DNA of 64,000 nt, taken from positions 124,001-188,000 of the forward strand of contig NZ_AULG01000015.1 of NCBI RefSeq assembly GCF_000425165.1. The letters run 5' to 3'. A program made the translations under genes and the position numbers. Under the pieces are notes generated by a model. That model had not been told where the DNA came from and made no database searches. It worked only from the letters and a program-made list of their open reading frames with translations. The first letter of the stretch is position 1. The number at the start of each line of letters is the position of its first letter. This document shows, piece after piece, positions 47,049-63,414 of this stretch. The stretch is from Photobacterium halotolerans DSM 18316. GTDB taxonomy: Bacteria; Pseudomonadota; Gammaproteobacteria; Enterobacterales; Vibrionaceae.

Positions 47049-47051
47049 ATG

Positions 47052-48170
47052 ATGAGAGGACTACACACCGTGTTACGGTGGTTGGCGGCCAGGCCTTATA
47101 TCTATGCCATTGGTATTACCGTTCTGATTCTTGGCTGGATGCTGTCTGGTGGTCAGTCTCAGGAAGACAACACCGCAATGCAGTTGTCGGATAATGAAAA
47201 CAGTGTGTCAGTTCAGACTCAGGATAAGGCGCCGGTACCTAAAGTCAGAATCACCACCTTCGCAGCCGAGCCTGTATTTCGTAGTTTGACCTTATACGGT
47301 AAGACAGAGCCCAGCCGCCAGGCGACAGTCAAAGCCGAAGTGGCTGGGCGAGTAGTTGAGGTGATTGCGCAGCGTGGCTCGTTAGTGAAAGAAGGACAAA
47401 TCATTGCCCGTCTGGCTCAGGATGACTGGCCGGAGCAGTTAAAGCGGGCAAAAGCCGTGCTCAAACAGCGGCAGATTGAATACGACGGTGCGAAGCGACT
47501 GAATGAAAAAGGCTTTCAGGGGCGTGTTCTGTTAGCTCAAACCGAAGCCGATCTTGTTGATGCGCAGACGACCATAGCGACCCTGACGCTGAAGCTGGAG
47601 AAAACCACCATCCGGGCACCACTGAGCGGTATCCTGAATGAGCGGATGGTAGAAGTGGGCGATTATGTTCAGGTGGGCGATCCGGTTGGCAATATTGCAG
47701 ATATCGATCCGCTGATTGTCCGGGCTGATGTTACCGAAACGGATATTCAGCACATTCGTTTGGGTCAGGAAGCGGAGGCAAGACTGGTAGGAAATCATGC
47801 TGTCACAGGTAAGGTTCGCTATCTTTCGAAAGTGGCCAATGAAACCACGAATACGTTCCGTATTGAGGTCGCTTTCGACAATGATCAACTGAATTTGCTG
47901 GCAGGGACCAGCGCTGAGCTGGTGGTACCGATTGAAGAAACGGAAGCCATTAAAGTCACCCCTGCCGTACTGGCTCTGGATGAGGTCGGGAATCTCGGCG
48001 TTAAAACCGTAGAGAAAGATCACGTGGTCTTTACGCCGGTGCGCGTCGTGAAAAGTGATGGTGACGGTACCTGGCTGGGTGGATTTTCAGGCATGGTGGA
48101 TGTGATCACCGTTGGTCAGGGTTTCGTCCGGCCGGGTGATCGTGTTGAAGCTATCAGGATGGAGAACTGA
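47052..48170 (+). CDS. RND efflux periplasmic adaptor (membrane-fusion protein)
   Basis: 372 residues. An N-terminal membrane anchor (about 14-32) precedes a barrel-sandwich/lipoyl half-motif (ATVKAEVAGRVVEVIAQRGS), a helical hairpin (about 125-165, LKQRQIEYDGAKRLNEKG), the second lipoyl half (KTTIRAPLSGILNERMVEVG) and a beta-barrel domain. The ATG at 47052 has AGGAG six bases upstream; the one at 47049 is closer. It bridges the RND pump to an outer-membrane channel, which is not encoded here. It lies 2 bases before the pump gene. Confidence 0.92.
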   Translation: MRGLHTVLRWLAARPYIYAIGITVLILGWMLSGGQSQEDNTAMQLSDNENSVSVQTQDKAPVPKVRITTFAAEPVFRSLTLYGKTEPSRQATVKAEVAGRVVEVIAQRGSLVKEGQIIARLAQDDWPEQLKRAKAVLKQRQIEYDGAKRLNEKGFQGRVLLAQTEADLVDAQTTIATLTLKLEKTTIRAPLSGILNERMVEVGDYVQVGDPVGNIADIDPLIVRADVTETDIQHIRLGQEAEARLVGNHAVTGKVRYLSKVANETTNTFRIEVAFDNDQLNLLAGTSAELVVPIEETEAIKVTPAVLALDEVGNLGVKTVEKDHVVFTPVRVVKSDGDGTWLGGFSGMVDVITVGQGFVRPGDRVEAIRMEN

Positions 48171-48172
48171 GA

Positions 48173-51100
48173 ATGCTTGGGATGATAGATGCCGCATTGC
48201 ATCGTACCCGTACCGTTGTCCTTATTCTGCTGCTTCTTTTGGTTGCCGGGTACATGAGTTACCAGAGCATTCCTAAAGAAGCGGAACCGGATATTACCAT
48301 TCCCTTTATTTATGTCTCGATTACCCATAGCGGTATTTCACCGGAAGATGCTGAACGCTTGTTGCTGCGGCCCATGGAGAAGGAATTACGTGGCATAGAT
48401 GGCGTGAAAGAAATGACCTCAACTGCCAGTGAAGGTCATGGTTCGGTGTTACTGGAATTTGTTGCCGGGGCCGATACCAACAGTGCCTTAGCGGATGTGC
48501 GCGAGAAAGTGAGTCTGGCTAAGGCGAAATTGCCGGACGGCACAGACGAGCCGACGGTGAATGAAGTCACCATGGCTTCTGAAAACCCGGCTATCACAGT
48601 TATGTTGTCGGGCACTGCGCCAGAGAGGGCACTGATTACCATCGCGCGTGATCTTAAAGATAAGCTGGAAAGCATGCGCGAAGTGCTGGAAGTCGATATC
48701 GGTGGTGATCGGGAAGACATGATTGAGATTCTGGTTGACCCGCTGCTGATGGAAAGCTACGACCTTGATCAGCAAGATATTTATAACCTGATATCCCGTA
48801 ATAACCGGCTGGTGGCGGCAGGGACACTCGACAGCGGGCAGGGGCGTTTCCCGATCAAGCTGCCTTCTGTCTTCGACAATATTAAAGACGTCATGGAAAT
48901 GCCGGTTAAGGTCTCTGGCGATAAAGTGATTACCTTTGGTGATGTCGCTACCGTTCGCCGGACGTTTCAGGATGCCGAGTCTTATGCCCGGGTGAACGGT
49001 AAACCTGCGGTATCGCTGGAAGTCAAAAAGCGGCCTGGTGAAAATATCATCCAGACGGTCGAAGGCGTGAAAGCACTGATTGAAAAAGAGCGCGAATTCT
49101 GGCCGCCAACCATAGCGGTGGATTACACGGGCGATCAGTCAAAACATGTCAAAACTATGTTGAACGACCTGCAAAATAACGTGCTGTCTGCCATTTTGCT
49201 GGTGGTCATTGTGATTATCGCTATTCTTGGTGCGCGTACGGCCTTGCTGGTGGGGATTGCCATTCCCGGCTCGTTTCTCACCGGGATACTGGCATTGGCG
49301 GTGCTGGGCTATACGGTCAACATGGTGGTGTTATTTGCCCTGATCATGGCTGTTGGCATGCTGGTTGACGGCGCCATAGTGGTTACTGAATACGCTGACC
49401 GTGAAATGAGTGAAGGTACGCCACGCTATGAAGCTTATAAAAAAGCCTCGAAGCGTATGGCCTGGCCGATCATTGCTTCCACGGCTACAACACTGGCCGC
49501 TTTTGGCCCGTTACTCTTCTGGCCGGGTATCATGGGCGAGTTCATGAAATTCCTGCCATTGACGCTGATCATGACCTTAGTCGCCTCTTTGGCGATGGCA
49601 TTGATATTTGTGCCGACATTAGGTGGCTTGTTTGGTAAGCCGCGCCCCATCTCTGCTGAAAAGCGTCAGCAACTGATTGAAGCCGAAGAGGGCGATATTG
49701 AGCACCTGCCAGGTTTCACCGGTAATTATGTCCGGGTACTGAAAGCGGCGGTCAAGCGGCCATGGAAGGTGTTATTCGGCGCGCTGGCGTTCTCACTGGC
49801 GGTTATCCTGTTGTACGGCAAAGCCGGTAACGGGACGGAATTTTTCCCTGAGGTGGAGCCGGAAGGGTTTAATATCGTGATTCGGTCTCAGGGCGATTTA
49901 TCCATTGAAGAGAAAGATCATCTGATTCAGGAGGTGGAACGCCAGCTATTGAATTTACCTGAGGTAGAAACCCTGTATGCGCGCTCGGGAGGCGATGACC
50001 GGATTGGTATGCTCAGGGTTAACCTGATCGACTGGCAAGACAGGCGTCCGGCGGCGGAAACGATTGAAGAGATTAAGCAGCGCACCGCCGGGCTTGCCGG
50101 GCTGGAAATTGAAGTGCGGCAGGATCAGGCTGGCCCACCAACCGGTGATAAAGATGTCAACCTGCAAATCAGCTCACGCTTTCCTGCCCTGCTGAAAGAC
50201 TCAGTCGCGAAAGTCCGTAAGGAACTGGAATCCAACCCTGCCTTTACCAACATTGATGATACCGGCCCTAAACCGGGTATCGAATGGCAGATAAACGTTG
50301 ATAGGGCTGATGCCGCGCGGTTTGGCGCAGATGCCACCCTGGTCGGCAATAATGTCCAGTTTGTCACCACAGGGTTAACGCTCGGCGAATACCGGGCTGA
50401 TGACGTTGATGATGAAATGGATATCCGTGTGCGGTTTCCGGAACAGTACCGACATATTACCCGCCTTGAAGAGCTGCGTCTGAAAACAGCGCAGGGGCAG
50501 ATTCCGCTCAGTAACTTCAGTACCTTAGAGGCCGCCAATAAGCTGGATACCATCAAGAAAGTGGATGGCCGTCAGGCGCTGTCGGTAACGGCTGACATGG
50601 CTCCCGGTTACAATCTGAGTAAAGTCATTCCTGAAGTCATGGCGCGTTTGCCTGAGCTGGGGCTGGATCCCAGGGTTCAGATTACCCTCCGGGGGGAAAA
50701 CGAAGAGCAGGAGAAAGCGTCGGCTTTCCTGAGTAAAGCCTTCCTGATTGCAATGGCAGTGATGGCGATTATTCTGGTCACTCAGTTTAACTCTTTCTAT
50801 CAGGCTTTTCTGATCCTGACTGCCGTCTTGTTCTCAACGGTCGGTGTCCTGCTTGGGATGCTGGTATTCAATCAGCCGTTCGGCATAGTGATGTCCGGGA
50901 TTGGGATCATCTCGCTGGCCGGGATAGTCGTGAATAACAATATCGTCCTGATTGATACCTATAACGTCCTCAGAAACCAGGGCATGGAGCCGATTGAGGC
51001 GATTCTTCGCACCGGTGCCCAGCGCTTGCGCCCTGTCATGATGACCACAGTCACTACCATTTTAGGCTTGATGCCAATGGTACTGATGGTGAATGTGGAT

Positions 51101-51352
51101 CTGATACAGCGCAAAGTGGAATTTGGCGCTCCGTCCACGCAAATGTGGGCACAACTTGCCACAGCGGTGGCGGGAGGGCTGGCCTTCGCAACGGTGCTGA
51201 CGCTGGTGATAACCCCTTGTATGCTGGCGCTCGGTGCTCATCGTCAGCAGCGTAAGGAACAGAAAGCACGCAGCAAAAGCTCCCCGCATCTGATTGATGA
51301 AGCATTAATGGATGACGATGAAGAAGTGAAATCGCTGGAAAAAGTCAGTTAA
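48173..51352 (+). CDS. RND-family efflux transporter, inner-membrane pump
   Basis: 1059 residues, the usual length for AcrB/VexH-type pumps. It has the N-terminal helix, two large periplasmic loops and two groups of membrane helices; the proton-relay aspartate region GMLVDGAIVVTEYADR in TM4 has a single Asp where AcrB has two. This subgroup (RND pumps with an anchored adaptor and no dedicated channel gene, some annotated as VexH-like) exports lipophilic compounds, bile salts or dyes. The substrate cannot be told here. Terminator follows. Confidence 0.93.
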   Translation: MLGMIDAALHRTRTVVLILLLLLVAGYMSYQSIPKEAEPDITIPFIYVSITHSGISPEDAERLLLRPMEKELRGIDGVKEMTSTASEGHGSVLLEFVAGADTNSALADVREKVSLAKAKLPDGTDEPTVNEVTMASENPAITVMLSGTAPERALITIARDLKDKLESMREVLEVDIGGDREDMIEILVDPLLMESYDLDQQDIYNLISRNNRLVAAGTLDSGQGRFPIKLPSVFDNIKDVMEMPVKVSGDKVITFGDVATVRRTFQDAESYARVNGKPAVSLEVKKRPGENIIQTVEGVKALIEKEREFWPPTIAVDYTGDQSKHVKTMLNDLQNNVLSAILLVVIVIIAILGARTALLVGIAIPGSFLTGILALAVLGYTVNMVVLFALIMAVGMLVDGAIVVTEYADREMSEGTPRYEAYKKASKRMAWPIIASTATTLAAFGPLLFWPGIMGEFMKFLPLTLIMTLVASLAMALIFVPTLGGLFGKPRPISAEKRQQLIEAEEGDIEHLPGFTGNYVRVLKAAVKRPWKVLFGALAFSLAVILLYGKAGNGTEFFPEVEPEGFNIVIRSQGDLSIEEKDHLIQEVERQLLNLPEVETLYARSGGDDRIGMLRVNLIDWQDRRPAAETIEEIKQRTAGLAGLEIEVRQDQAGPPTGDKDVNLQISSRFPALLKDSVAKVRKELESNPAFTNIDDTGPKPGIEWQINVDRADAARFGADATLVGNNVQFVTTGLTLGEYRADDVDDEMDIRVRFPEQYRHITRLEELRLKTAQGQIPLSNFSTLEAANKLDTIKKVDGRQALSVTADMAPGYNLSKVIPEVMARLPELGLDPRVQITLRGENEEQEKASAFLSKAFLIAMAVMAIILVTQFNSFYQAFLILTAVLFSTVGVLLGMLVFNQPFGIVMSGIGIISLAGIVVNNNIVLIDTYNVLRNQGMEPIEAILRTGAQRLRPVMMTTVTTILGLMPMVLMVNVDLIQRKVEFGAPSTQMWAQLATAVAGGLAFATVLTLVITPCMLALGAHRQQRKEQKARSKSSPHLIDEALMDDDEEVKSLEKVS

Positions 51353-51400: not shown

Positions 51401-51440
51401 AAAAAAGAACCGCCACCTTTTTCAGGGTGGCGGTTTTTCT
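51401..51440. terminator. Bidirectional terminator between the RND pump and the NhaC-type gene
   Basis: AACCGCCACC (51408-51417) pairs with GGTGGCGGTT (51426-51435). AAAAAA precedes and TTTTTCTT follows, so it works on both strands between convergent genes. Confidence 0.9.
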
Positions 51441-51480: not shown

Positions 51481-52956
51481 TCAGGCGATAACCAGAAAGA
51501 ACACTGCGGTTGCAACAATACCAATCAGTGCATAAGGGATTTGGGTCAGGGCGTGCTGCATAGCGGTACAGCCACTGCCTTGTGCAGACAGTACCGTGGA
51601 GTCACTGAAGAAGCATGAGTGACTGCCGGCCGCCGATGCTGACAACAGGGCGCCGATAGTGATAGAGACCGGCACACCCAGGTGCGCACCCAGCGGGAAT
51701 ACAATCGGCATGGCGACCGCAAACAATCCCCAGGATGAGGCGGTCGCAAAGACCAGCGCGGCCATCACAAGGAAGATGATTGCAGGGAACATCTGTGCCG
51801 ACAGGTAAGGCGAAACAGTTTCGATTACGTACTGTGTCAGGCCCAGCTGGTCATTGACGTTTTTCAGCATGAAACCGGCGATGACGGTTGCCAGAGGCAG
51901 CATCATGATTTTGATACCGTCATAGACAGCCTCAAACATGGTGTTCACCGGCATCAGACGTTGTACGCCGTACAGGAACATGGTGAAAATCATGGCAACG
52001 AAGACGCCGGCCAGCAAATCAATATCGAAATACCAGCTTGCGGCAACCAGCACTATCATTGGCAGGGCAAAGTTCAGCACACCAATGGTTGAGTTTGGAT
52101 GTGCTTTCACATCTTCACCCAGTGCAACGTCAACGCCACCGTCAGGCTGCACCTGGCCATTCTGGGCTCGTTTCTCTGCCGCTTTCATCGCACCCAGATC
52201 AGGGATTTTTCCAGTGGCTACCAGGAACACAACCAGCAGTGTTACCCAGCCGTAGGCCATATAAGGAATCGCATCAATATAGGCACTGATCCCTTTGCCG
52301 GATGCGGCAATGTCGTTATCTTCCAGCAGCGAGCTGAAGAAAATGGCCCAGGTGGAAATAGGCAGCAGGATACACACCGGTGCGGCGGTGGAGTCGACCA
52401 GATAAGCCAGTTTCTCACGAGAGATTTTGTAGCTGTCTGTAATGCGCTTCATCGATGATGAAATCGCAATCGCATTCAGGTAGTCATCAATGAAGACCAG
52501 AATACCCAGCACGAAGGTCAGCACCATTGACTGGCGTTTGCTTTTGACTTTAGTGACCAGAGCTTCACTGAAACTCAGGATACTGCCGCCTTTTTCCAGT
52601 ATGGTGATCAATCCGCCCATTAAGCCGCAGACCAGAATCAGCCAGGCTATGGTTTCATCCATCATCACTGTCATCGACACATCGACGACATTTCCGACGA
52701 TCTGCTGAGGATCTATCATGATCAGGCCGACGATAGCGCCACTGAACAGGGCCTCGACGGTTCGGTGAGTTAACAACGCCACGGCCAGAACGAAAATGGT
52801 CGGTAACAAACTGTACCAGCCATAGGGCGTCCCTGTTTCATGGGTGTTACCAATAATGGCAAAAGTCCCGATGATCCCGGCAATTGCCAGAATAACCGAC
52901 ATGCTCTTCGCATTTGGCTTCTGCGGCGCATCTAATGCAGGTGTTTTCACTGTCAT
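51481..52956 (-). CDS. NhaC-family transporter in the putrescine operon
   Basis: 491 residues with about eleven to twelve membrane helices and the NhaC-type signatures: LILVCGLMGGLITILEKGG, VFIDDYLNAIAI, STAAPVCILLPISTW and a Ser/Gly-rich late helix (SASAAGSHSCFFSDSTVLSA). By family it is called a Na+/H+ antiporter, but NhaC-family members also move organic ions. It follows puuA with a 26-base gap and no terminator, in the place of the E. coli putrescine importer gene puuP (an APC-family carrier). I infer that it may import putrescine or agmatine, or exchange them for GABA or protons. This is not shown by sequence. Confidence 0.88.
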   Translation of the reverse strand: MTVKTPALDAPQKPNAKSMSVILAIAGIIGTFAIIGNTHETGTPYGWYSLLPTIFVLAVALLTHRTVEALFSGAIVGLIMIDPQQIVGNVVDVSMTVMMDETIAWLILVCGLMGGLITILEKGGSILSFSEALVTKVKSKRQSMVLTFVLGILVFIDDYLNAIAISSSMKRITDSYKISREKLAYLVDSTAAPVCILLPISTWAIFFSSLLEDNDIAASGKGISAYIDAIPYMAYGWVTLLVVFLVATGKIPDLGAMKAAEKRAQNGQVQPDGGVDVALGEDVKAHPNSTIGVLNFALPMIVLVAASWYFDIDLLAGVFVAMIFTMFLYGVQRLMPVNTMFEAVYDGIKIMMLPLATVIAGFMLKNVNDQLGLTQYVIETVSPYLSAQMFPAIIFLVMAALVFATASSWGLFAVAMPIVFPLGAHLGVPVSITIGALLSASAAGSHSCFFSDSTVLSAQGSGCTAMQHALTQIPYALIGIVATAVFFLVIA

Positions 52957-52982
52957 ACAAGAATTCCTTTCCTATCTTTCAG

Positions 52983-54329
52983 TTACGCTGAATGAAGCAT
53001 CCACTCAATTTCCAGTGGCGTGACGGCTTTTTCAAAATCCGCCAGTTCACGTTGCTTGCATGCTAGATAAAGCGAGATAAATGATTGCGGTAGGTACATC
53101 GACATTAGCTCGCTTGATGCAAGCTTTATTAGTGCGTCCGGCATGCGAAGAGGTAACTCTACCGCATTGTCGGCCAGTTGTGGCGGGCATTGCTCAAAAG
53201 TAAAACGTTCGCTGGCAAGCAAGCCAGCCAAGAGTACTGAAGCAAGCACATACGGGTTGACATCTGCTCCAGCGATACGATGTTCAATACGGCGGTTGTG
53301 GCTGTCACTCATTGGGATTCTGAGTGCAACCCCGCGGTGGTTTTCTCCCCAGTTGGCATGGGTGGGTGTGTACATAGAAGCCGAGAAGCGGCGGTATGAA
53401 TTCACGTTCGGGCAAAGCAGTGCCATGGAATCCGGCATCATGGCCAGCATGGCGGCCAGCGTTTGGTAATAGAAGGGGCTGGCTTCGCCTTCCTGATCGG
53501 AAAACAGGTTTCTGCCGTCTTTATCTACCACGCTCAGATGCATGTGTTTGCCGTTACCGGCTTCGTCAGCATAAGGTTTGGCCATGAAAGTGACATCGAA
53601 ATCATGGGCCTGAGCAACCTGGCGAATCAACCGCTTCGCCAGAATGACCTGATCGCAGGCATTAACAACATCTTGCTGGTGGTTAAAATTGATCTCGAAC
53701 TGGCCTGGTGCCGATTCCGACAGTGCGCCAGAGGTATTGAGTCCCTGTGCAACCGCAGCGTCATTGAGATCACGTAAAAACGCGGAATAATCATCAAGAT
53801 TCTCTACGTTGTACACGTCTGAACGGTACTCTCTGTCATGGTGGATGGGGTTGAGAGGCGGCTGGATAGCGCCCTTAACCCCGCGGTTTTTATCCAGCAG
53901 ATAAAACTCAAGCTCAATGGCGACAACCGGGAACTGTTCGCGCCGGTGAAGCTGCTCAAGCAGGTTCACCAGAACAGAGCGTATGCAAAGGTCTGTCGGC
54001 TGGCTGCCCGACTCATCCATCATGGTCAGCATGACCTGGCCGACTTCAGGATTAAAGGTGGTGGTCAGTGTGCCCGGTACCGGGTAACAGATATGGTCTG
54101 GTTCACCCAGTGCCTCGCCGAGTCCCGCTTCTTCAACCACATTCCCTTCAATGCTCAGCGAGATAGTAGAGAGAGGTAAGTAAACGCCTTTCTCAATTTT
54201 TTCAACCGCTTCGACTGGAATACGTTTGCCTCTCGGGGTGGCGTTGATGTCGGTAAAGAGCAAATCAACGAACCTGATCTCGGGCCACTTTTGTTTAAAA
54301 TTTTTAACTTCTTCTTTAAATCCGTTCAT
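52983..54329 (-). CDS. puuA: Gamma-glutamylputrescine synthetase
   Basis: 448 residues of the glutamine-synthetase fold. The beta-grasp domain (about 1-115) and catalytic domain show VVAIELEFYLLDK (metal Glu), GALSESAPGQFEINF, AGNGKHMHLSV and the NRRIEHRIAGADVNPY stretch. It joins glutamate to putrescine with ATP, the first step of the Puu route. It is divergent from puuD across about 200 bases that hold two PuuR-type operators, and cotranscribed with the NhaC-type transporter. Confidence 0.94.
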   Translation of the reverse strand: MNGFKEEVKNFKQKWPEIRFVDLLFTDINATPRGKRIPVEAVEKIEKGVYLPLSTISLSIEGNVVEEAGLGEALGEPDHICYPVPGTLTTTFNPEVGQVMLTMMDESGSQPTDLCIRSVLVNLLEQLHRREQFPVVAIELEFYLLDKNRGVKGAIQPPLNPIHHDREYRSDVYNVENLDDYSAFLRDLNDAAVAQGLNTSGALSESAPGQFEINFNHQQDVVNACDQVILAKRLIRQVAQAHDFDVTFMAKPYADEAGNGKHMHLSVVDKDGRNLFSDQEGEASPFYYQTLAAMLAMMPDSMALLCPNVNSYRRFSASMYTPTHANWGENHRGVALRIPMSDSHNRRIEHRIAGADVNPYVLASVLLAGLLASERFTFEQCPPQLADNAVELPLRMPDALIKLASSELMSMYLPQSFISLYLACKQRELADFEKAVTPLEIEWMLHSA

Positions 54330-54410
54330 TCACGAAACACCTCGTGTGGATACATCCTGTAACTTATATTTAACAGATGAACGCCAAATGGCAATAATTG
54401 TGTTCAGAAT

Positions 54411-54426
54411 GTTCGAAATATCGAAC
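54411..54426. promoter_or_regulatory. PuuR operator candidate 1 (puuA side)
   Basis: GTTCGA-AATA-TCGAAC, a perfect 16-bp inverted repeat 82 bases upstream of the puuA start. The same pattern recurs 85 bases away next to puuD. The puuR gene in the adjacent operon is the probable regulator. Confidence 0.8.
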
Positions 54427-54495
54427 GTTGATCAAATTTTAGTAACATTTTTGTAAATTGCAGGTTGATTTCCCTTAGTGCTCTAAGCTAGGTTT

Positions 54496-54511
54496 GTTCA
54501 ATAAATCGAAC
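54496..54511. promoter_or_regulatory. PuuR operator candidate 2 (puuD side)
   Basis: GTTCAA-TAAA-TCGAAC, matching operator 1 at all but one arm position, 19 bases before the puuD start codon and thus over the promoter/leader. The two sites are 85 bases centre to centre, about eight helical turns, so a looped repressor complex is possible. Confidence 0.8.
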
Positions 54512-54530
54512 ACTGATGGCAGGAGAGACC

Positions 54531-55295
54531 ATGATGAACTCAACAAAAGCTGGACCGGTAATTGGCGTTGTATGCTGCAAAAAATCACTGGAAGGCTATG
54601 GCATTCAAAGTGTTAATGAGTTCTATCTCCATGCGATCAAGCAGTTTGGTGCCAACCCGGTTCTGTTTCCGTCGGGCTCTACGGCTGAGGAAATTAAGCA
54701 ACTGATTGGATTGGTCGACGGTGTGCTGCTGACCGGCAGTCATTCAAACGTTGCGCCGGCCCGTTACGGTGCAGAACATGATGAACCGAAAAAAGATGAA
54801 GGCCGTGATGCCTTGTCATTTGCACTGATAGACACCTGTATCAAAGAGAACGTGCCGATTCTCGGTATCTGCCGCGGATTTCAGGAGATGAATGTTGCGC
54901 TTGGCGGATCATTGCACCCGAAAGTGCATGAAGTGGAAGGCTTTAACGACCACAGGGAAAGCCCGCTCAATGACATGATCATCAAGTATTCACCGGCTCA
55001 TCCGGTAAATATTTCTGACAACGGCACCTTTGCCGACTGGCTGGCGCCACTGGACAACATTGAAGTGAACTCTCTGCACGGCCAGGGTGTGAATCAATTG
55101 GCGCCGGGTCTTACTGTGGAAGCGGTTGCACCGGATGGTTTGATTGAAGCCTTTAGTTTACAGGCGCATCCATTCTTTATTGGTGTGCAGTGGCACCCAG
55201 AATGGCAAGCGACTGAAAACCATTTTTCACGAATTTTGTTTGATCAGTTTATGATATCGGCTTCAAAACGAAGGAGCCTCCATGATGGAAACTGA
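54531..55295 (+). CDS. puuD: Gamma-glutamyl-GABA hydrolase
   Basis: 254 residues of the class I glutamine-amidotransferase-like fold. The nucleophile is Cys114 in ILGICRGFQEM, as in E. coli PuuD, and the His/Glu pair is in GVQWHPEW; WVNSLHGQG-type sequence (VNSLHGQGVNQLAPG) is also conserved. The start at 54531 is preferred, with AGGAG five bases upstream, over an ATG at 54516. It releases GABA and glutamate from gamma-glutamyl-GABA. First gene of the rightward catabolic operon; overlaps puuR by 14 bases. Confidence 0.94.
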   Translation: MMNSTKAGPVIGVVCCKKSLEGYGIQSVNEFYLHAIKQFGANPVLFPSGSTAEEIKQLIGLVDGVLLTGSHSNVAPARYGAEHDEPKKDEGRDALSFALIDTCIKENVPILGICRGFQEMNVALGGSLHPKVHEVEGFNDHRESPLNDMIIKYSPAHPVNISDNGTFADWLAPLDNIEVNSLHGQGVNQLAPGLTVEAVAPDGLIEAFSLQAHPFFIGVQWHPEWQATENHFSRILFDQFMISASKRRSLHDGN

Positions 55296-55839
55296 CTCAA
55301 TTGGTAAAAAAATCGCACAGCTAAGAAAAGAATACAAATTGTCTCAGCGTGAACTGGCAGAAAAAGCTGACATTACCCACAGCGCTATCTCATCAATCGA
55401 GAACAGCAAGGTGAGTCCGTCGGTCAGTTCATTACACAAGATAGTGAAAGTGTTCGATATGTCCTTGTCTGAGTTTTTTACACAAGATCAGGCATTTGAT
55501 GAGCGTCCGGTGGTGATTAAACCTGATCAGCTGATTGAAATGGGCAACGAACAGGTCTCAATGAAACTGGTCTGCGACGGTCGCAAAGACAGGCAAATGG
55601 GCTTTCTGATTGAGGTATATCAGCCTCATTCGAGCACAGGACTGATTAGCATTAAACACGAAGGTGAGGAAAGCGGAACGGTACTGGAAGGTGAAATAGA
55701 ACTGGCGCTGGGTGACAAAACCTATGTCATCGGCGAAGGCGAAAGTTACCTGTTTGATACCAGTATTCCTCACAAGTTTACCAACAGAACGGACAAACTT
55801 TGCCGGATTGTCAGCGCACATACCCCGGCAAGTTTCTGA
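55282..55839 (+). CDS. puuR: PuuR transcriptional repressor
   Basis: 185 residues: an HTH_XRE domain (about 8-66, LRKEYKLSQRELAEKADITH...SSIENSKVSPSV) and a C-terminal cupin domain (about 108-180, HEGEESGTVLEGEIELALGD) that binds the inducer. In E. coli PuuR represses the puu genes and is released by putrescine. It starts inside the end of puuD behind AAGGAG. The two GTTCRA-N4-TCGAAC sites upstream are its likely operators. Confidence 0.93.
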   Translation: MMETDSIGKKIAQLRKEYKLSQRELAEKADITHSAISSIENSKVSPSVSSLHKIVKVFDMSLSEFFTQDQAFDERPVVIKPDQLIEMGNEQVSMKLVCDGRKDRQMGFLIEVYQPHSSTGLISIKHEGEESGTVLEGEIELALGDKTYVIGEGESYLFDTSIPHKFTNRTDKLCRIVSAHTPASF

Positions 55840-55863: not shown

Positions 55864-57351
55864 ATGAACACTCAACAGCAATGGACAGCACTAAAACAGC
55901 AGATAGACATTGAAGCCAGGGCATTCATTCACGGTGAGTACCAGCATGCCCAGAGTGGTAACACCTTTGCGGTGATCAACCCGGCGACAGACGAGCATCT
56001 TGCTGATGTTGCCCGCTGTGACGCAAAGGATGCAGCAATTGCTGTTGAGATGGCCAGAAGTGCCTTTAACCGCGGAGACTGGCAGGATCAGAGTCCGGCA
56101 CAGAGAAAAGCGGTGTTACTGGCGTTCGCCGACCTGATCGATCAGGATCGGGAAACCCTGGCCCTGCTGGAAACCCTGGATACCGGTAAACCTATCAGTC
56201 ACAGTTTCAGTACTGATATTCCCGGCGCTGCCGCGGCTATTCGCTGGTACGCCGAAGCAATTGATAAAACCTATGGCGAAGTGGCGCCCACTGAAGTCAA
56301 TGTGCATGCCTATATCACGCATCAGCCCATTGGCGTCGTTGCTGCCATAGTGCCCTGGAACTTTCCGCTCTGGCTCGCGTGCTGGAAATTAGGGCCAGCA
56401 CTGGCGGCCGGAAACAGCGTGATTCTCAAGCCCTCTGAAAAATCACCGTTAACCGCCATTCATCTTGGCAAACTGGCCAAACAAGCCGGTATTCCTGATG
56501 GCGTGTTCCAGGTATTGCCGGGATTCGGCCATGAAGTAGGCGATGCCCTAGCGCGCCATGAAGATGTGGATTGTATAACCTTCACCGGTTCAACCCGGGT
56601 AGCCCGCCAACTGATGGTGTGTTCGGGTGAATCCAATATGAAGCGTGTCTGGGCCGAAGCGGGCGGTAAAAATGCCAATATCGTGTTCGCCGATTACAAG
56701 AATCTGGATAAAGCAGCGGCGGAAACCGCAGCGGGCTGTTTCTATAACCAGGGCGAAGTATGCGTGGCGGCAACCCGGTTGCTGGTACATGAAAGCATCA
56801 AAGATGCGTTTGTCGCCAAAGTCATTGCGGCATCAAACGCCTTTACCCCGAAAGATCCGCTCGATCCTGCTTCGTCGATGGGCGCACTGATCGATCAGGA
56901 GCACAAAGCCAAAGTGCTGGACTATGTCGCCAAAGGACAAGCGGCCGGTGCCAAAGTGCTGTGCGGCGGTGATGTTGCAGGGCAAGGCGCCTTTGTTGCC
57001 CCCGTGGTGTTAGGTGATGTCAGCAATGACATGGCTGTTGCCCGTGAAGAAATTTTTGGTCCTGTGTTGTGCGTGATCCCGTTCAGCACAGAAGAAGAAG
57101 CGATTGCGATCGCCAACGATTCCCCCTACGGGCTGGGTGCCGCGCTATGGACGTCCGATCTGGACCGTGCGCACCGGGTCGCCCGTCAGCTTCAGGCAGG
57201 CTCGGTCTGGATTAATAACTACAACGAAGGTGACATGACAGTTCCGTTTGGCGGCTTTAAACAAAGCGGCAATGGTCGGGATAAATCACTGCATGCCCTG
57301 GAGAAGTTCACAGAGGTGAAAACCACTTGGCTTCGTCTTGAGTCGTACTAA
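55864..57351 (+). CDS. puuC: Gamma-glutamyl-gamma-aminobutyraldehyde dehydrogenase
   Basis: 495 residues of the aldehyde dehydrogenase family, with VPWNFPLWLACWKLGPALAA, the catalytic Glu265 in WAEAGGKNAN, the FTGSTRVA nucleotide loop and the nucleophile Cys300 in GEVCVAATR. It oxidises the aldehyde made by PuuB with NAD(P)+. AAGGAAGG lies before the ATG, 24 bases after puuR; puuB follows after 12 bases. Confidence 0.94.
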   Translation: MNTQQQWTALKQQIDIEARAFIHGEYQHAQSGNTFAVINPATDEHLADVARCDAKDAAIAVEMARSAFNRGDWQDQSPAQRKAVLLAFADLIDQDRETLALLETLDTGKPISHSFSTDIPGAAAAIRWYAEAIDKTYGEVAPTEVNVHAYITHQPIGVVAAIVPWNFPLWLACWKLGPALAAGNSVILKPSEKSPLTAIHLGKLAKQAGIPDGVFQVLPGFGHEVGDALARHEDVDCITFTGSTRVARQLMVCSGESNMKRVWAEAGGKNANIVFADYKNLDKAAAETAAGCFYNQGEVCVAATRLLVHESIKDAFVAKVIAASNAFTPKDPLDPASSMGALIDQEHKAKVLDYVAKGQAAGAKVLCGGDVAGQGAFVAPVVLGDVSNDMAVAREEIFGPVLCVIPFSTEEEAIAIANDSPYGLGAALWTSDLDRAHRVARQLQAGSVWINNYNEGDMTVPFGGFKQSGNGRDKSLHALEKFTEVKTTWLRLESY

Positions 57352-57363
57352 AAGGAGTTTACT

Positions 57364-58641
57364 GTGATTAATCATACCGGTTCTTTCTACGCCGCTACGG
57401 CGAACTATACGCGAGAGTTTCCAACCCTGACCGATAACATCGAGTGCGATGTGTGTATCGTGGGGGCGGGTTTCAGCGGTCTGTCATCGGCGCTGCACCT
57501 GGCGAAAAAAGGCTTTAAAGTGGTGGTCCTCGAAAGTGCCAAAGTGGGCTTTGGCGCGACGGGCCGTAACGGCGGCCAAATCGTTAACAGCTACAGCCGC
57601 GATGTTGATGTCATCGAGAAGCGTTATGACAAAAAGACCTCAGACGCACTGTGCAGCATGATTTTTGAAGGTGGCGACATTATTCGCGGCCTGATTGAAG
57701 AGTTTAACATTGACTGTGATCACCGCCAGGGTGGCCTGTTTACTGCGGTGAACAACAAACAGTTTGAAGGGCTGAAACACCATAAAGCCAACTGGGAGCG
57801 CTACGGCAATAAAGAGCTGACACTGCTCGATAAAGCTGAGCTGCAAACTATGGTGGGCACTGACGTTTACGAAGGCGGTTTGCTGGACATGCGTGGCGGC
57901 CATATTCATTCACTGAACCTGGCGCTGGGCGAAGCCGAAGCCATTATTCAGATGGGCGGACAGATTTTTGAACAGTCAGCCGTTACCCGGATTGAAAAAG
58001 GCACCAAACCTGTTGCTCACACCAGCCAGGGCTCGGTCAAAGCGCAATATATGGTACTGGCCGGCAATGCTTATCTGGGTGGCCTGGCGCCAAACATCAG
58101 CAATAAAGCCATTCCATGCGGCACACAGGTGGTGACGACAGAACCACTGTCAGATGCACTGTGCGATGAGCTGCTGCCGCAACGTTACTGCGTAGAAGAC
58201 TGCAACTACCTGCTGGATTACTTCCGCATTACCGGTGACAACCGGATGCTGTTTGGCGGCGGTGTGGTGTACGGCGCACGTGATCCGGCCAACGTAGAGA
58301 AACTGATCCGTCCGAAGATGGAGAAAGTCTTCCCTCAGCTAAAAGGCGTGAAACTGGATTTTGCCTGGACCGGTAACTTCCTGCTGACCTATTCACGTAT
58401 GCCGCAATTTGGCAGTTTTGCTGACAACATTTACTACCTGCAAGGATACAGCGGCCATGGCATTACCTGTACGCATCTTGCCGGCAAACTGCTGGCTGAA
58501 GCGCTGACCGGACATGCTGAGCGTTTTGATGCATTTGCGTCTCTGCGTCATTACGCCTTCCCGGGCGGACGCCATTTCCAGGTGCCGTTTACGGCGCTTG
58601 GGGCCGCTTACTACAACTTACGCGACAAGCTCGCTATCTAA
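57364..58641 (+). CDS. puuB: Gamma-glutamylputrescine oxidase
   Basis: 425 residues of the DAO-type flavoprotein family. The FAD motif IVGAGFSGLSSAL lies at 32-44, then ATGRNGGQIVNSYSRD and the C-terminal YLQGYSGHGI box, all typical of PuuB/OrdL. It begins at a GTG or the adjacent position with AAGGAG upstream. It oxidises gamma-glutamylputrescine with O2 to the aldehyde, H2O2 and ammonia. Its place in the operon between puuC and aguB fits this. Confidence 0.93.
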   Translation: MINHTGSFYAATANYTREFPTLTDNIECDVCIVGAGFSGLSSALHLAKKGFKVVVLESAKVGFGATGRNGGQIVNSYSRDVDVIEKRYDKKTSDALCSMIFEGGDIIRGLIEEFNIDCDHRQGGLFTAVNNKQFEGLKHHKANWERYGNKELTLLDKAELQTMVGTDVYEGGLLDMRGGHIHSLNLALGEAEAIIQMGGQIFEQSAVTRIEKGTKPVAHTSQGSVKAQYMVLAGNAYLGGLAPNISNKAIPCGTQVVTTEPLSDALCDELLPQRYCVEDCNYLLDYFRITGDNRMLFGGGVVYGARDPANVEKLIRPKMEKVFPQLKGVKLDFAWTGNFLLTYSRMPQFGSFADNIYYLQGYSGHGITCTHLAGKLLAEALTGHAERFDAFASLRHYAFPGGRHFQVPFTALGAAYYNLRDKLAI

Positions 58642-58663: not shown

Positions 58664-59533
58664 ATGTCAAAGACAGTGACTTTTGCTTCAGTGCAGCTTT
58701 CGATGTCGTGGGATATCGATAATAACCTGAAAAAGATCAGCCAGGCGGTGAAAGAAGCTGCCGACAATGGCGCGAACGTTGTGGTGCTGCAGGAACTCTT
58801 TGCCGCTCCTTACTTCTGTAAAGAACAGGTTGCCAGGTATTTCGATCTGGCAGAAGAAACCGATAACAGCCCGTTAATTGATCACATGAGCCAGCTGGCG
58901 CGTGAATTCAATGTCGTGATTCCGGTGAGTTACTTCGAGCGATCAGGCAACAGCTTTTTTAACTCTCTGGTGATGATCGATGCTGACGGCACTGTGATGG
59001 ACAACTACCGTAAGTCACACATTCCAGATGGTCCGGGTTACAGCGAGAAATACTACTTCAGCCCTGGTGATACCGGCTTCAAAGTCTGGCAAACCCAGTT
59101 CGGCAAGTTTGGGGTAGGGATCTGCTGGGATCAGTGGTTCCCGGAGCTGGCACGTTGTCTGGCGCTGGCGGGTGCAGAAGCGATTTTCTATCCGACTGCC
59201 ATTGGCTCTGAGCCTCAGGATCCGACGCTGGACTCACGCGATCACTGGCAGCGCACCATGCAGGGCCACTCTGCTGCCAACCTGATCCCTGTGATTGCCG
59301 CCAACCGCACCGGCGTGGAAACCGACGATGGCATTGAAACCACCTTCTATGGCTCATCATTTATTACCGATCATACCGGCAAGAAACTGGCCGAAGCGGG
59401 CCGTGATGAAGAAACCATCATTTATGCCAGCATTGATCTGGAAGCGACAGCCAAAGCCCGCTACAGCTGGGGCCTGTTCCGTGACCGTCGCCCGGATCTG
59501 TACGGCCGCATTCATTCACTGACCGGCAAGTAA
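58664..59533 (+). CDS. aguB: N-carbamoylputrescine amidase
   Basis: 289 residues from the ATG at 58664, behind AGGAAGAG; the frame is open for 50 more codons upstream, but those overlap puuB and are not used. Nitrilase-fold triad: Glu44 in VLQELFAAPYFC, Lys117 in YRKSHIPDG and Cys154 in GICWDQWFPE. The EKYYFSPGD and GSEPQDPTLDSRDHW stretches are characteristic of AguB. It turns N-carbamoylputrescine into putrescine, CO2 and ammonia, feeding PuuA. Confidence 0.95.
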   Translation: MSKTVTFASVQLSMSWDIDNNLKKISQAVKEAADNGANVVVLQELFAAPYFCKEQVARYFDLAEETDNSPLIDHMSQLAREFNVVIPVSYFERSGNSFFNSLVMIDADGTVMDNYRKSHIPDGPGYSEKYYFSPGDTGFKVWQTQFGKFGVGICWDQWFPELARCLALAGAEAIFYPTAIGSEPQDPTLDSRDHWQRTMQGHSAANLIPVIAANRTGVETDDGIETTFYGSSFITDHTGKKLAEAGRDEETIIYASIDLEATAKARYSWGLFRDRRPDLYGRIHSLTGK

Positions 59534-59563: not shown

Positions 59564-60667
59564 ATGGAACGACAGGGCACCCCTTCAGAGCACGGCTATT
59601 ATTTCCCTGCGGAGTTTGCGCCGCAGGAACAGGTTTGGCTGGCATGGCCGGAGCGGCCTGATAACTGGCGTGATAATGCGAAGCCAGCGCAGCACGCTTT
59701 TACTCAGGTTGCAACGGCCATCAGCCAACATACCAGGGTCTGTGTGGCTGTCAGCCCCAGTCAGTACCTGACGGCAACGCTTATGTTGCCTGAAACGATT
59801 GACGTCGTTGAAATGCCGCTCAATGACGCCTGGATGAGAGACATCGGCCCGACAGTCGTGGTGAACGACAAGGGTGAGCGCCGTGGCATCAGCTGGCAGT
59901 TCAATGCATGGGGCGGAGAGGTGGATGGCCTGTATGCCCCCTGGAATGACGACGATAAGGTGGCGGCGACAATTTGCGAGCACCTCGGGCTGGATTACTA
60001 TCGCGCACCTTTTGTACTGGAAGGGGGAGCGATTCACACTGACGGCGAAGGCACCCTGTACACCACGGAAGAATGTCTGTTGTCTGCCGGACGGAATCCG
60101 CATCTCAGCAAAACAGAGATCGAAGCGTATCTGGCCGATTACCTGTCAGTCAGCAAGGTGATCTGGCTGCCGGATGGCTTGTTTAACGACGAGACCAATG
60201 GCCATGTCGATAATCTGCTGCACGTGATTGCGCCGGGTGAAGTGGTATTAAGCTGGTGTGATGATCCTGAGGATCCGCAGTATGCGATTTCCCGCCGGGC
60301 ACTGGATGTGCTGGAGAACAGCACGGATGCCAAAGACCGGCGCATCAGAGTGCACAAGCTGCCGATCCCGGGTCCGCTATATTTAACACAAGAGGAAGCG
60401 GCCGGTATTGAGCCATCGGGCGGCATGAAACGTGAAGCTGGCGAACGTTTGGGTGGCTCTTATGCCAACTTCCTGATGTGCAATAAAAACGTATTTTTGC
60501 CCTTGCTGGACTCAGCCAGTGATCAGCAAGCCATGTATATACTGCAAGCGGCACTGCCGGATTACCAGATTATTGGTATACCGACCCGGGAAGTGCTGCT
60601 GGGTGGCGGCAATATCCATTGTATTACTCAGCAGATCCCTGACGCACTTGCCTGCAAACAGGGCTGA
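59564..60667 (+). CDS. aguA: Agmatine deiminase
   Basis: 367 residues of the guanidino-group-modifying fold. The family motifs are WMRDIGPTVVVND, FNAWGG, VLEGGAIHTDGEGT, NGHVDN and the C-terminal nucleophile Cys353 in GGGNIHCITQQIP. It converts agmatine to N-carbamoylputrescine and ammonia; AguB acts next. AAGGAAG lies before the ATG; 30 bases after aguB. Confidence 0.96.
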   Translation: MERQGTPSEHGYYFPAEFAPQEQVWLAWPERPDNWRDNAKPAQHAFTQVATAISQHTRVCVAVSPSQYLTATLMLPETIDVVEMPLNDAWMRDIGPTVVVNDKGERRGISWQFNAWGGEVDGLYAPWNDDDKVAATICEHLGLDYYRAPFVLEGGAIHTDGEGTLYTTEECLLSAGRNPHLSKTEIEAYLADYLSVSKVIWLPDGLFNDETNGHVDNLLHVIAPGEVVLSWCDDPEDPQYAISRRALDVLENSTDAKDRRIRVHKLPIPGPLYLTQEEAAGIEPSGGMKREAGERLGGSYANFLMCNKNVFLPLLDSASDQQAMYILQAALPDYQIIGIPTREVLLGGGNIHCITQQIPDALACKQG

Positions 60668-60696: not shown

Positions 60697-62130
60697 ATGC
60701 AGCAAATTAAGAACCGCACTTTGCTCGCTTTTGTGTGCGAGCCATCCGACACCTCACTGGCTGTGACCAATCCGGCTGACGGTGAAGTGTTGTGTCATAT
60801 TCCGACTCAGAATGAAGCGGAAATTGTTTCTGCCATTGAACGCGCCAATACCGCGCAAAAGGCCTGGGCGAAAACCAGCGCTAAAGAGCGTGCGGTGATC
60901 CTGCGTCGCTGGTTTGATCTGATTATGCAGAACCAGGACGATCTCGGCCGTCTGATGACCTTAGAGCAAGGCAAACCGCTGGCTGAAGCCAAAGGCGAAG
61001 TGGCCTACGGTGCCAGCTTTATTGAGTGGTTCTCGGAAGAAGCGAAACGTACCTATGGCGATTCCATTCCGGGTCCGACCACAGATAAACGCATCGTGAC
61101 GATCAAGCAGCCCATTGGTGTGGCCTGTGCCATCACTCCCTGGAACTTCCCGATTGCGATGATCACCCGTAAAGCCGCGCCTGCACTGGCGGCGGGCTGT
61201 ACCTTTATCTGCAAACCTGCCAATCAGACGCCTTTGTCAGCCTATGCAGTGGCGGAATTAGGCTATCAGGCCGGTATCCCGCGCGATGCGCTTCAATTGG
61301 TGGTGAATGCCTCGTCCAGCATGGTGGGCAAGGTGTTCACCGGCAATCCGCTGATCCGTAAGTTGTCCTTTACCGGCTCCACCGGTGTCGGTCGCCTGCT
61401 GATGGCACAATGTGCCGACAGCATCAAGCGCACGTCGATGGAGCTGGGCGGCAACGCGCCCTTCATCGTGTTTGACGATGCCGATATCGATCTGGCTGTG
61501 AAAGGCGCGGTGGCCTCCAAGTTCCGCAATGCCGGTCAAACCTGCGTGTGTGCCAACCGTTTCTACGTGCAGGACGGTATTTACGATGCCTTCGTTGCCA
61601 AATTCAAAGCTGAAGTTGAAAAGCTGAAAGTGGGCAACGGGCTGGATGACGGCGTGACTATTGGCCCTGTGATTGATACGTCGGCCAAAGAGAAGATCAT
61701 GCACTTAACCGATCACACCGTTGCTCAGGGGGCAACACTGGTGACGGGCGGACAGCAGCTTGACGGCCTGTTTGTCCAGCCGACGATTCTGGCGGATGTC
61801 ACGCACGACATGGATATCGTGCAGGAAGAAATTTTTGGTCCGATTGCACCTGTGATTCGTTTCAGCACGGATGATGAGCTGATTGACATGGCCAACGACA
61901 CCATTTATGGCCTCGCTTCTTACTTCTACAGCCAGAACATCAACCGGATCTGGAAAGTGGCAGAAGCACTGGAATACGGCATGGTGGGGATCAACGAAGG
62001 CATGATTTCAACCGAAGTGGCCCCGTTTGGCGGGGTGAAACAATCCGGTATCGGACGTGAGGGTGCCAAGCAAGGCATCGACGAATACATGGACATTAAA
62101 TACCTCTGTTTTGGCGGCATTCAAGCATAA
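60697..62130 (+). CDS. gabD: Succinate-semialdehyde dehydrogenase
   Basis: 477 residues of the aldehyde dehydrogenase family with the GabD signatures: TPWNFPIAMITRKAAPALAA, catalytic Glu249 in SMELGGNAPFIVF and Cys283 in GQTCVCANRF. The adjacent second cysteine (CVC) is also seen in E. coli GabD and can form a redox-switch disulphide. It oxidises succinate semialdehyde to succinate. It lies 29 bases after aguA and 12 bases before gabT. Confidence 0.93.
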   Translation: MQQIKNRTLLAFVCEPSDTSLAVTNPADGEVLCHIPTQNEAEIVSAIERANTAQKAWAKTSAKERAVILRRWFDLIMQNQDDLGRLMTLEQGKPLAEAKGEVAYGASFIEWFSEEAKRTYGDSIPGPTTDKRIVTIKQPIGVACAITPWNFPIAMITRKAAPALAAGCTFICKPANQTPLSAYAVAELGYQAGIPRDALQLVVNASSSMVGKVFTGNPLIRKLSFTGSTGVGRLLMAQCADSIKRTSMELGGNAPFIVFDDADIDLAVKGAVASKFRNAGQTCVCANRFYVQDGIYDAFVAKFKAEVEKLKVGNGLDDGVTIGPVIDTSAKEKIMHLTDHTVAQGATLVTGGQQLDGLFVQPTILADVTHDMDIVQEEIFGPIAPVIRFSTDDELIDMANDTIYGLASYFYSQNINRIWKVAEALEYGMVGINEGMISTEVAPFGGVKQSGIGREGAKQGIDEYMDIKYLCFGGIQA

Positions 62131-62142
62131 GGAAGGCAAGTG

Positions 62143-63414
62143 ATGAGCAATCAAGCATGGCAAGCACGTAAGCAACAAGTGATCGCACAGGGAATGGGCA
62201 ACCTGAATCCTCTGTATGTAGAAACTGCAAAGAATGCCGAAATCTGGGATATCGAAGGTAATCGCTATATTGATTTTGGTTCGGGTATCGCGGTGAACAA
62301 CACAGGCCATTCTCACCCCCGTATTGTCGAAGCGGTCAAAGCGCAGCTGGATAATTTTTCCCATACCTGTGCCATGGTGACCCCGTATACGTCCTTTGTG
62401 GAACTGGCGGAGCAACTGACAGCACGCGCTCCTGGCAACACGGCGAAGAAAGCCGTCTTTCTGACCACAGGTGCGGAAGCGGTCGAAAACGCCATCAAAG
62501 TTGCCCGAGCGCACACCAAACGCAGCGGCGTGATTGCGTTTAAAGGCGGATTCCACGGCCGGACCAATATGACCATGGGGCTGACCGGTAAAGTGGCACC
62601 TTATAAAGCGGGTTTCGGTCCCTTCCCGGGCGAAATCTATCATGCCCCTTATCCGAATGCGTTCCACGGCATCAGCATTGAAGACAGTCTGCAGGCGATT
62701 GAGGATCTGTTCGCCTGTGATATTGAACCGTCACGTGTTGCCGCCATTATCTTCGAGCCGGTTCAGGGCGAAGGGGGCTTTTACCAGGCGCCGCCTGCGT
62801 TTGCCCAGGCGCTGCGTGAACTGTGTGATAAACACGGTATCCTGCTGATTGCCGATGAAATTCAAACCGGTTTTGCCCGTACCGGCAAAATGTTCGCTAC
62901 TGAGTACTTAGGTATTGAGCCGGATATGATGACCATGGCAAAAGGGATTGCAGGTGGTTTCCCAATCTCAGCCCTGGTGGGTAAAGCCGATATCATGGAT
63001 GCTGCCGGCCCCGGCGGTCTGGGTGGCACTTATGCCGGTTCACCTCTGGGTTGTGCCGCAGGTCTGGAAGTGCTGAAGATCATTGATGAAGAGCAGCTGT
63101 GCGAGAAAGCCCTGAAAATTGGCGAAGTGATGACCAGCCATTTCCGCTCGCTGCAGTCTGATTTCCCTGTCATTGGCGAGGTACGTAATCTGGGCGCGAT
63201 GATTGCCGTCGAGTTTGTCGATCCTCAGTCCGGTGCCCCCATGGCTGATCTGACCAAATCGCTGGTGGCTCAGGCGCGGGAAGAAGGTGTCATTCTGCTG
63301 TCTTGTGGTGTGAAAGGAAACGTGATCCGCTTTCTGCCTGCCCTGACGATTGAAGATGAGATCCTTGCAGAAGGCATCGAGAAAGTGAAAAAAGCACTGG
63401 CAGCCTTGGTTTAA
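62143..63414 (+). CDS. gabT: 4-aminobutyrate aminotransferase
   Basis: 423 residues of the class III PLP aminotransferase family, with FLTTGAEAVENAIKVAR, FKGGFHGRTNMTMGLTGK, LIADEIQTGFARTG and the PLP lysine Lys267 in MAKGIAGGFP. AAGGAAGG is before the ATG at 62143; a GTG directly precedes it. It transfers the GABA amino group to 2-oxoglutarate, giving succinate semialdehyde for GabD. In E. coli the puu cluster uses the paralogue PuuE here, so the symbol could equally be puuE. Last gene of the operon. Confidence 0.93.
   Translation: MSNQAWQARKQQVIAQGMGNLNPLYVETAKNAEIWDIEGNRYIDFGSGIAVNNTGHSHPRIVEAVKAQLDNFSHTCAMVTPYTSFVELAEQLTARAPGNTAKKAVFLTTGAEAVENAIKVARAHTKRSGVIAFKGGFHGRTNMTMGLTGKVAPYKAGFGPFPGEIYHAPYPNAFHGISIEDSLQAIEDLFACDIEPSRVAAIIFEPVQGEGGFYQAPPAFAQALRELCDKHGILLIADEIQTGFARTGKMFATEYLGIEPDMMTMAKGIAGGFPISALVGKADIMDAAGPGGLGGTYAGSPLGCAAGLEVLKIIDEEQLCEKALKIGEVMTSHFRSLQSDFPVIGEVRNLGAMIAVEFVDPQSGAPMADLTKSLVAQAREEGVILLSCGVKGNVIRFLPALTIEDEILAEGIEKVKKALAALV

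Follow-up and report, generated by a model that had tools for sequence, protein, structure and literature searches.

In a 64,000-nucleotide stretch of the Photobacterium halotolerans DSM 18316 genome (contig NZ_AULG01000015.1; hereafter the window, to whose full length positions refer unless a locus is named), we find an NhaC-type transporter gene (51481..52956, minus strand, 491 residues) whose product we propose, with a probability of about 0.7, to be a putrescine importer. The gene starts 26 bases behind a puuA-like gamma-glutamylamine synthetase gene on the same strand (52983..54329; 448 residues; 276 bits to PF00120 and 459 bits to Escherichia coli PuuA), with which it would be co-transcribed. 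On its 3' side lies an intrinsic-terminator-like stem-loop (51408..51435, minus strand; 10 pairs, seven of them G-C, and a T-rich tail), the longest of seven terminator-like sites there, where shuffled sequences average 3.7. The proposal draws its direct support from conserved gene order, exclusion of the E. coli importer PuuP, swaps of transporter partner, conserved palindromes, and predicted fold. The arrangement given in a preliminary description of this DNA, an NhaC gene closed by a terminator behind puuA and divergent from puuDRCB, is borne out by the open reading frames (ORFs), the Pfam match and the stem-loop.

The gene order is conserved far beyond this genome. We took the best 80 of 127 loci, picked by similarity to the NhaC-type protein alone, so that their neighbours had no influence on the choice. 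They represent Vibrionaceae (31), Halomonadaceae (20), Oceanospirillaceae (14), Aeromonadaceae (7), Marinobacteraceae (5), Ferrimonadaceae (2), and one unplaced bin. In 79 of the 80, puuA or puuB lies no more than 600 bases upstream on the same strand (puuA in 62, puuB in 19, both in 2), and in the remaining locus, L069, a PuuC-like ORF stands between puuA and the NhaC gene. A plasmid of the alphaproteobacterium Thioclava carries, consecutively, a glutamine synthetase family gene, a flavin adenine dinucleotide (FAD) oxidoreductase gene, an NhaC gene, and a glutamine amidotransferase gene; the first three products score 225, 477, and 524 bits against PuuA, PuuB, and NhaC of the window, and the amidotransferase shows no match to the window PuuD.

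The same loci bear on agmatine, which the preliminary description had suggested as a possible substrate in place of putrescine and from which AguA and AguB would then yield putrescine. Both agu genes occur in the divergent unit here and join the operon in all 33 Vibrionaceae and Ferrimonas loci, and a sister NhaC branch sits directly beside aguA. However, aguA/aguB are absent from 45 of the 80 loci on the available stretch, some of which are short, whereas puuA or puuB is near NhaC in all of them. Agmatine import is thus an improbable account of this transporter.

A tree of NhaC proteins, built from 89 of 125 distinct rows with the window protein included three times as near-copies, places the linked proteins together. 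In one clade (Shimodaira-Hasegawa-like approximate likelihood-ratio test, SH-aLRT, 99), PuuA or PuuB is encoded within 5 kb in 48 of 48 rows; adding five aguA-linked proteins and five that are mostly HDAC-linked gives a group of 58 (support 94 in a short search). In a sister group of 12 NhaC proteins, which serves as a within-family control, no polyamine query gene lies within 5 kb. Those 12 come from loci L135, L136, L139, L140, L142, L144-L148, L150, and L153, and judging by plasmid matches they probably include Shewanella and Pseudoalteromonas. A distinct puu-linked clade, as had been anticipated, is therefore present, and it reaches well beyond Vibrionaceae.

We next consider the importer that occupies this position in E. 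coli. At E <= 1e-20, PuuP was found in none of 61 Vibrionaceae genomes (P. halotolerans itself and 60 others), which extends to the whole genome the earlier remark that the window lacks a PuuP-like gene. That the query works is shown by its matches elsewhere in the order, in 33 of 197 genomes and once at 93% identity. Across 121 Vibrionaceae genomes, PuuA at 62% identity or above and NhaC at 66% or above coincide exactly: both occur in the same 14 genomes, the two matches lying 20-30 bases apart; the 19 other PuuA places tested (at most 47% identity) have no such NhaC within 6 kb. In the 197-genome sample, the 15 best PuuA places, from 15 genomes and with the cut after the 15th set once the result had been seen, comprise ten with NhaC and five with PuuP within 6 kb, and none with both. 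Nowhere in the ten NhaC-type genomes does PuuP match at 1e-20, and the five PuuP-type genomes lack an NhaC match at 1e-60; the other 27 PuuA places tested in this sample (36-44% identity) have neither transporter near. These counts cover 33 of the 44 listed PuuA places in Vibrionaceae, 42 of 84 in the order, and 42 of 55 PuuP places; the PuuA places outside them are second PuuA-like copies (about 31-35% identity), and by eye none of these lies within 6 kb of a listed NhaC or PuuP. PuuP above 150 bits was likewise found in 0 of the 80 NhaC loci. Beside the best-matching PuuA, NhaC and PuuP are thus mutually exclusive, in agreement with the suggestion that the NhaC gene stands in PuuP's place.

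A further solution was seen in five loci with a more distant PuuA (L167-L171), which were chosen and are not all such loci: PotF, PotG, and PotH are encoded in all five. Each of L167, L168, L169, L170, and L171 has one or two PuuA-like genes and an aminotransferase gene with PotF-PotG-PotH, a third transporter arrangement in a related pathway. Three unrelated transporters, PuuP, PotFGHI, and NhaC, therefore seem to serve one pathway, and this repeated swapping around a single pathway makes putrescine import the best reading of the NhaC-type protein.

These observations also bear on what the family name implies. The protein's only Pfam assignments are PF03553 (99.9 bits, cut-off 23) and DcuC, and it falls far short of the NCBIfam equivalog for the NhaC antiporter (TIGR00931, 18 bits against a cut-off of 370); by these profiles the product of 51481-52956 is a member of the NhaC family and not an orthologue of the NhaC antiporter. 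The reading as an ordinary Na+/H+ antiporter that simply travels with the operon has one thing in its favour, the family name, in PF03553 and in public annotation. Against it stand the TIGR00931 score, the puuA or puuB gene upstream in nearly every locus, and the exclusion of PuuP. We rejected it as the leading explanation because of the tight linkage and the failed equivalog score, and consider it scarcely credible.

Which transporter came first was approached through the PuuA proteins, using 61 of 88 rows for a quick tree (rows under 400 residues and duplicate loci having been dropped before the 88) and then 34 chosen rows. The 34-protein tree contains at least four changes of transporter partner. 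The PuuP-linked PuuA of E. coli groups with that of four kin, and its sister group is the NhaC-linked PuuA of Oceanimonas and Zobellella (99/95); the NhaC-linked PuuA of Vibrionaceae and Ferrimonas falls outside this grouping. A single clade of the six PuuP-linked PuuA proteins is rejected by the approximately unbiased (AU) test (p-AU 0.020), and a single clade of the 18 NhaC-linked ones is marginal (p-AU 0.046), the tested groups having been named after the quick tree had been seen. PuuP-linked PuuA is thus nested within NhaC-linked PuuA, so that PuuP of E. coli may be the newcomer; we see no sign in these trees that PuuP was the earlier partner. The tree is rooted at its midpoint, which leaves the direction of change open. 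The preliminary description had taken NhaC to have replaced PuuP; that direction does not follow from the tree and is perhaps the reverse.

Joint control of the two divergent units was examined in the gap between puuA and puuD. The locus encodes a PuuR orthologue (240.7 bits against a cut-off of 211), and the gap contains two palindromic operator-like sites, at 54410..54427 and, directly 5' of puuD, at 54495..54512 (no strand assigned to either), both matching a pattern that is conserved in other loci and both candidate PuuR sites. Over 41 regions, the puuA-puuD gaps of 40 loci and E. coli, the best match to the 18-base palindrome has a mean of 3.2 mismatches, against 6.9 in shuffled sequences. 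It was chosen from two of the regions scored, so that the result supports a shared PuuR site and does not prove it. A scan of the window gave six matches where 1.26 were expected, a number reached by one of 100 shuffles; that pattern was written from the two sites above, which, counted on both strands, account for four of the six. A strict TGTTC...GAACA palindrome was discarded, being present in 2 of the 41 regions only, while the looser palindrome holds. The conserved palindromes fit the joint PuuR control that had been proposed for the locus, with the reserve that the pattern was drawn from regions among those scored. We picture the puuA-NhaC unit and the divergent puuDRCB genes as being repressed by PuuR until putrescine appears.

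On its predicted fold, the NhaC-type protein belongs to the IT superfamily and would be an elevator-type secondary transporter. The fold was compared with MleN (PDB 9a59, an integrative model) and with the DASS transporters NaS1, NaDC3, and INDY, at 9-13% identity. A PDB search with the sequence itself returned no matches up to E 10, and a profile comparison of the N-terminal with the C-terminal half gave no signal of an inverted repeat. DASS proteins are anion carriers, and MleN, the closest fold, is an antiporter. The latter agrees with an exchanger or exporter that relieves a polyamine or 4-aminobutyrate (GABA) load, for instance by putrescine/GABA exchange, as does an NhaC-family protein of Halobacterium salinarum, which was shown to be an arginine/ornithine exchanger (Wimmer et al. 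2008, as recounted in a passage of PMC5300872). Nevertheless, next to the same catabolic genes NhaC occupies the position of the importer PuuP and also that of PotFGH, and export or exchange seems to us very improbable. As an importer, the protein would feed putrescine into the gamma-glutamyl (Puu) route, which leads to GABA and succinate; uptake could be powered by H+, by Na+, or by the pull of the membrane potential on the dication. All 89 rows from the puu-, agu-, and HDAC-linked groups have Glu at residue 68, where all 12 unlinked relatives have Leu; the puu group in this comparison (79 rows) was defined by a score above 500 bits and not by neighbours. Glu68 may contribute to a site for the dication; the protein also has Glu212, Asn368, and His446 and two DST motifs (188-190, 452-454).

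The divergent plus-strand unit reads puuD, puuR, puuC, puuB, aguB, aguA, an aldehyde dehydrogenase gene, and gabT. The puuD-like gamma-glutamyl-GABA hydrolase gene (54516..55295; 235 bits to NF008471, cut-off 266, and 223 bits to E. coli PuuD) may instead start at an ATG at 54531. It is followed by puuR (55282..55839; NF007408), by a puuC-like aldehyde dehydrogenase gene (55864..57351; top family PuuC, 757 bits, cut-off 850), and by a puuB-like FAD oxidoreductase gene (57364..58641; PF01266, 629 bits to E. coli PuuB). Then come aguB for N-carbamoylputrescine amidase (58664..59533; TIGR03381, 469 bits; start picked within an ORF listed from 58514), aguA for agmatine deiminase (59564..60667; TIGR03380, 555 bits), an ORF for an aldehyde dehydrogenase probably acting on succinate semialdehyde (60697..62130; labelled from sequence and position alone), and gabT for 4-aminobutyrate transaminase (62140..63414; TIGR00700, 594 bits, cut-off 506.65). 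PuuR, AguA, AguB, and GabT all pass their curated NCBIfam cut-offs. The homologues of puuA, D, R, C, and B keep their E. coli order, and the locus shares with E. coli puuAP/puuDRCBE the divergent layout, PuuR, the PuuA-D set, and a transporter gene behind puuA. It differs in that the E. coli transporter is an importer of the APC family and this one belongs to the NhaC family and IT superfamily, and in the addition here of aguBA and an aldehyde dehydrogenase gene downstream. Beyond the transporter, the window encodes at 47049-51352 a membrane fusion protein and a 1059-residue resistance-nodulation-division (RND)-type pump (labels from sequence, without a library search); these genes meet the NhaC-type gene tail to tail and share its terminator region.

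Several results weigh against the proposal or narrow it. PuuA reaches 166 of the 650 bits required by its NCBIfam equivalog, and PuuC and PuuD also remain below theirs, so the amine handled could be a relative of putrescine. In the ranking of PuuA places, the 16th, at 369.1 bits against 369.6 for the 15th, has neither transporter. A PotF- or PotH-like gene above 150 bits lies somewhere on the stretch in 7 of the 80 NhaC loci, and hence NhaC and Pot do not strictly exclude each other; P. halotolerans itself encodes a tandem PotD-like pair, which makes another polyamine importer likely and NhaC unlikely to be the sole one, and which lends some weight to the objection raised in the preliminary description that a separate Pot system might carry all of the uptake. 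The unlinked sister group of 12 is 47-52% identical over the matched parts, and an NhaC protein of similar score from a Shewanella baltica plasmid, not one of the 12, adjoins a distant glutamine-synthetase-family gene whose product scores 176 bits against the window PuuA. Finally, a class sample of 229 genomes gave 12 with an NhaC match at 1e-10, the best outside P. halotolerans at 32% identity, and a phylum sample of 299 gave six at E <= 1e-60, all in the same order. By even sampling the branch is therefore not broad, although named records place it in Halomonas, Marinobacter, and Thioclava.

The first of these points invites the alternative that the transporter imports a close relative of putrescine, such as cadaverine, 1,3-diaminopropane, N-acetylputrescine, or a short polyamine, on which the Puu enzymes would act. 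The low equivalog scores agree with it, as does the presence of HDAC-like amidohydrolase genes beside some NhaC paralogues. Yet PuuR lies above its cut-off, the gene order is that of E. coli, and the Vibrionaceae and Ferrimonas operons include the two enzymes, AguA and AguB, that lead to putrescine itself. We regard this alternative as unlikely, and putrescine as the substrate that better suits the locus.

Other NhaC genes were noted near related functions. In Halomonas puu loci another NhaC paralogue, distant at about 200 bits, occurs among puuD, gabT, and puuA (L041 3789-5777, L043 3854-5854, L048 1784-3727, L068 3739-5706). P. halotolerans has a second NhaC-type gene, 43% identical, on contig C10 (L088 8865-12222), followed by genes for an HDAC-like amidohydrolase and a LuxR-type regulator, a trio also present in L151 and L152, from two further genomes of this genus. 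In L137 (6305-12574) and L141 (7320-15070), NhaC lies beside aguA, a class-III aminotransferase gene, an HDAC-like gene, and a divergent gene for a LuxR-type regulator, possibly an agmatine operon with its own NhaC branch. The idea that the HDAC-like neighbour of the paralogue is an acetylpolyamine amidohydrolase was tried and not upheld. In a comparison with the best 60 of 137 listed PDB sequences, the highest scores belong to a 'Deacetylase', propanil or dimethoate hydrolase, and HDAH (at most 375 bits), against 154 for the polyamine deacetylase HDAC10 and 125 for an acetylpolyamine aminohydrolase; what was available of PMC4784309 says nothing on the neighbours of the deacetylase gene.

Organic substrates are not foreign to the NhaC family. 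Besides the H. salinarum exchanger, the excerpts available describe the methionine transporter MetT as a family member (PMC3228920), predict tyrosine transport for T-box-linked NhaC genes (PMC2494555), and place nhaC in an ornithine operon of Clostridiales (PMC6615313). The substrates in these last three cases were assigned from regulon or neighbours, and the descriptions, as far as these excerpts go, mention no puu genes, unlike the present locus. The H. salinarum protein likewise belongs to the NhaC family, carries cationic amino acids, and is tied to a catabolic cluster (PMC5300872, in part); it differs in substrate and pathway, and the window protein scores 25.5 bits against the ArcD model NF052307 (cut-off 650). 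With carriers of arginine/ornithine and, by prediction, of other amino acids already in print, the novelty of function suggested in the preliminary description shrinks to a new branch, not a new kind. The polyamine carriers listed in an excerpt of PMC9397018 are PuuP, PotFGHI, PlaP, PotE, and others, with no NhaC named there; excerpts of PMC9800807 and PMC10308900 had nothing to say on the matter, and among the portions of open-access PMC literature returned by our search we found no NhaC-family protein with a putrescine role.

The same operon may already have been met under another label. In Table 2 of PMC11380683, an article available to us in part, a 'sodium:proton antiporter' occurs in 100% of Latin American Vibrio parahaemolyticus sequence type 3 (ST3) and in 41% of others, and is read as a sign of adaptation to salt and pH. 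Further entries are a glutamine synthetase family protein, an FAD-binding oxidoreductase, a gamma-glutamyl-GABA hydrolase, and puuR (44-45% in others), as well as aguB and aguA (67-68% in others). These entries match the gene list of the present operon, and we infer that the ST3 antiporter is this NhaC gene and that the listed genes form one locus. Tentatively, and with rather less than even confidence, we extend the proposal to a polyamine branch of the NhaC family, marked by Glu68, with putrescine carriers linked to puuA or puuB, agmatine carriers linked to aguA, and perhaps carriers of N-acylated amines linked to HDAC-like genes. Within this branch NhaC would be the older partner of PuuA, replaced by PuuP in E. 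coli, and 'salt-tolerance' antiporters such as that of V. parahaemolyticus ST3 would be putrescine importers.

In conclusion, the NhaC-type protein likely gives Vibrionaceae, Halomonadaceae, Oceanospirillaceae, Marinobacteraceae, Aeromonadaceae, and Ferrimonadaceae a way of taking up putrescine that would be the third, after PuuP and PotFGHI. The label of sodium:proton antiporter may already mislead, as in the reading of V. parahaemolyticus ST3 in the part of PMC11380683 cited above.

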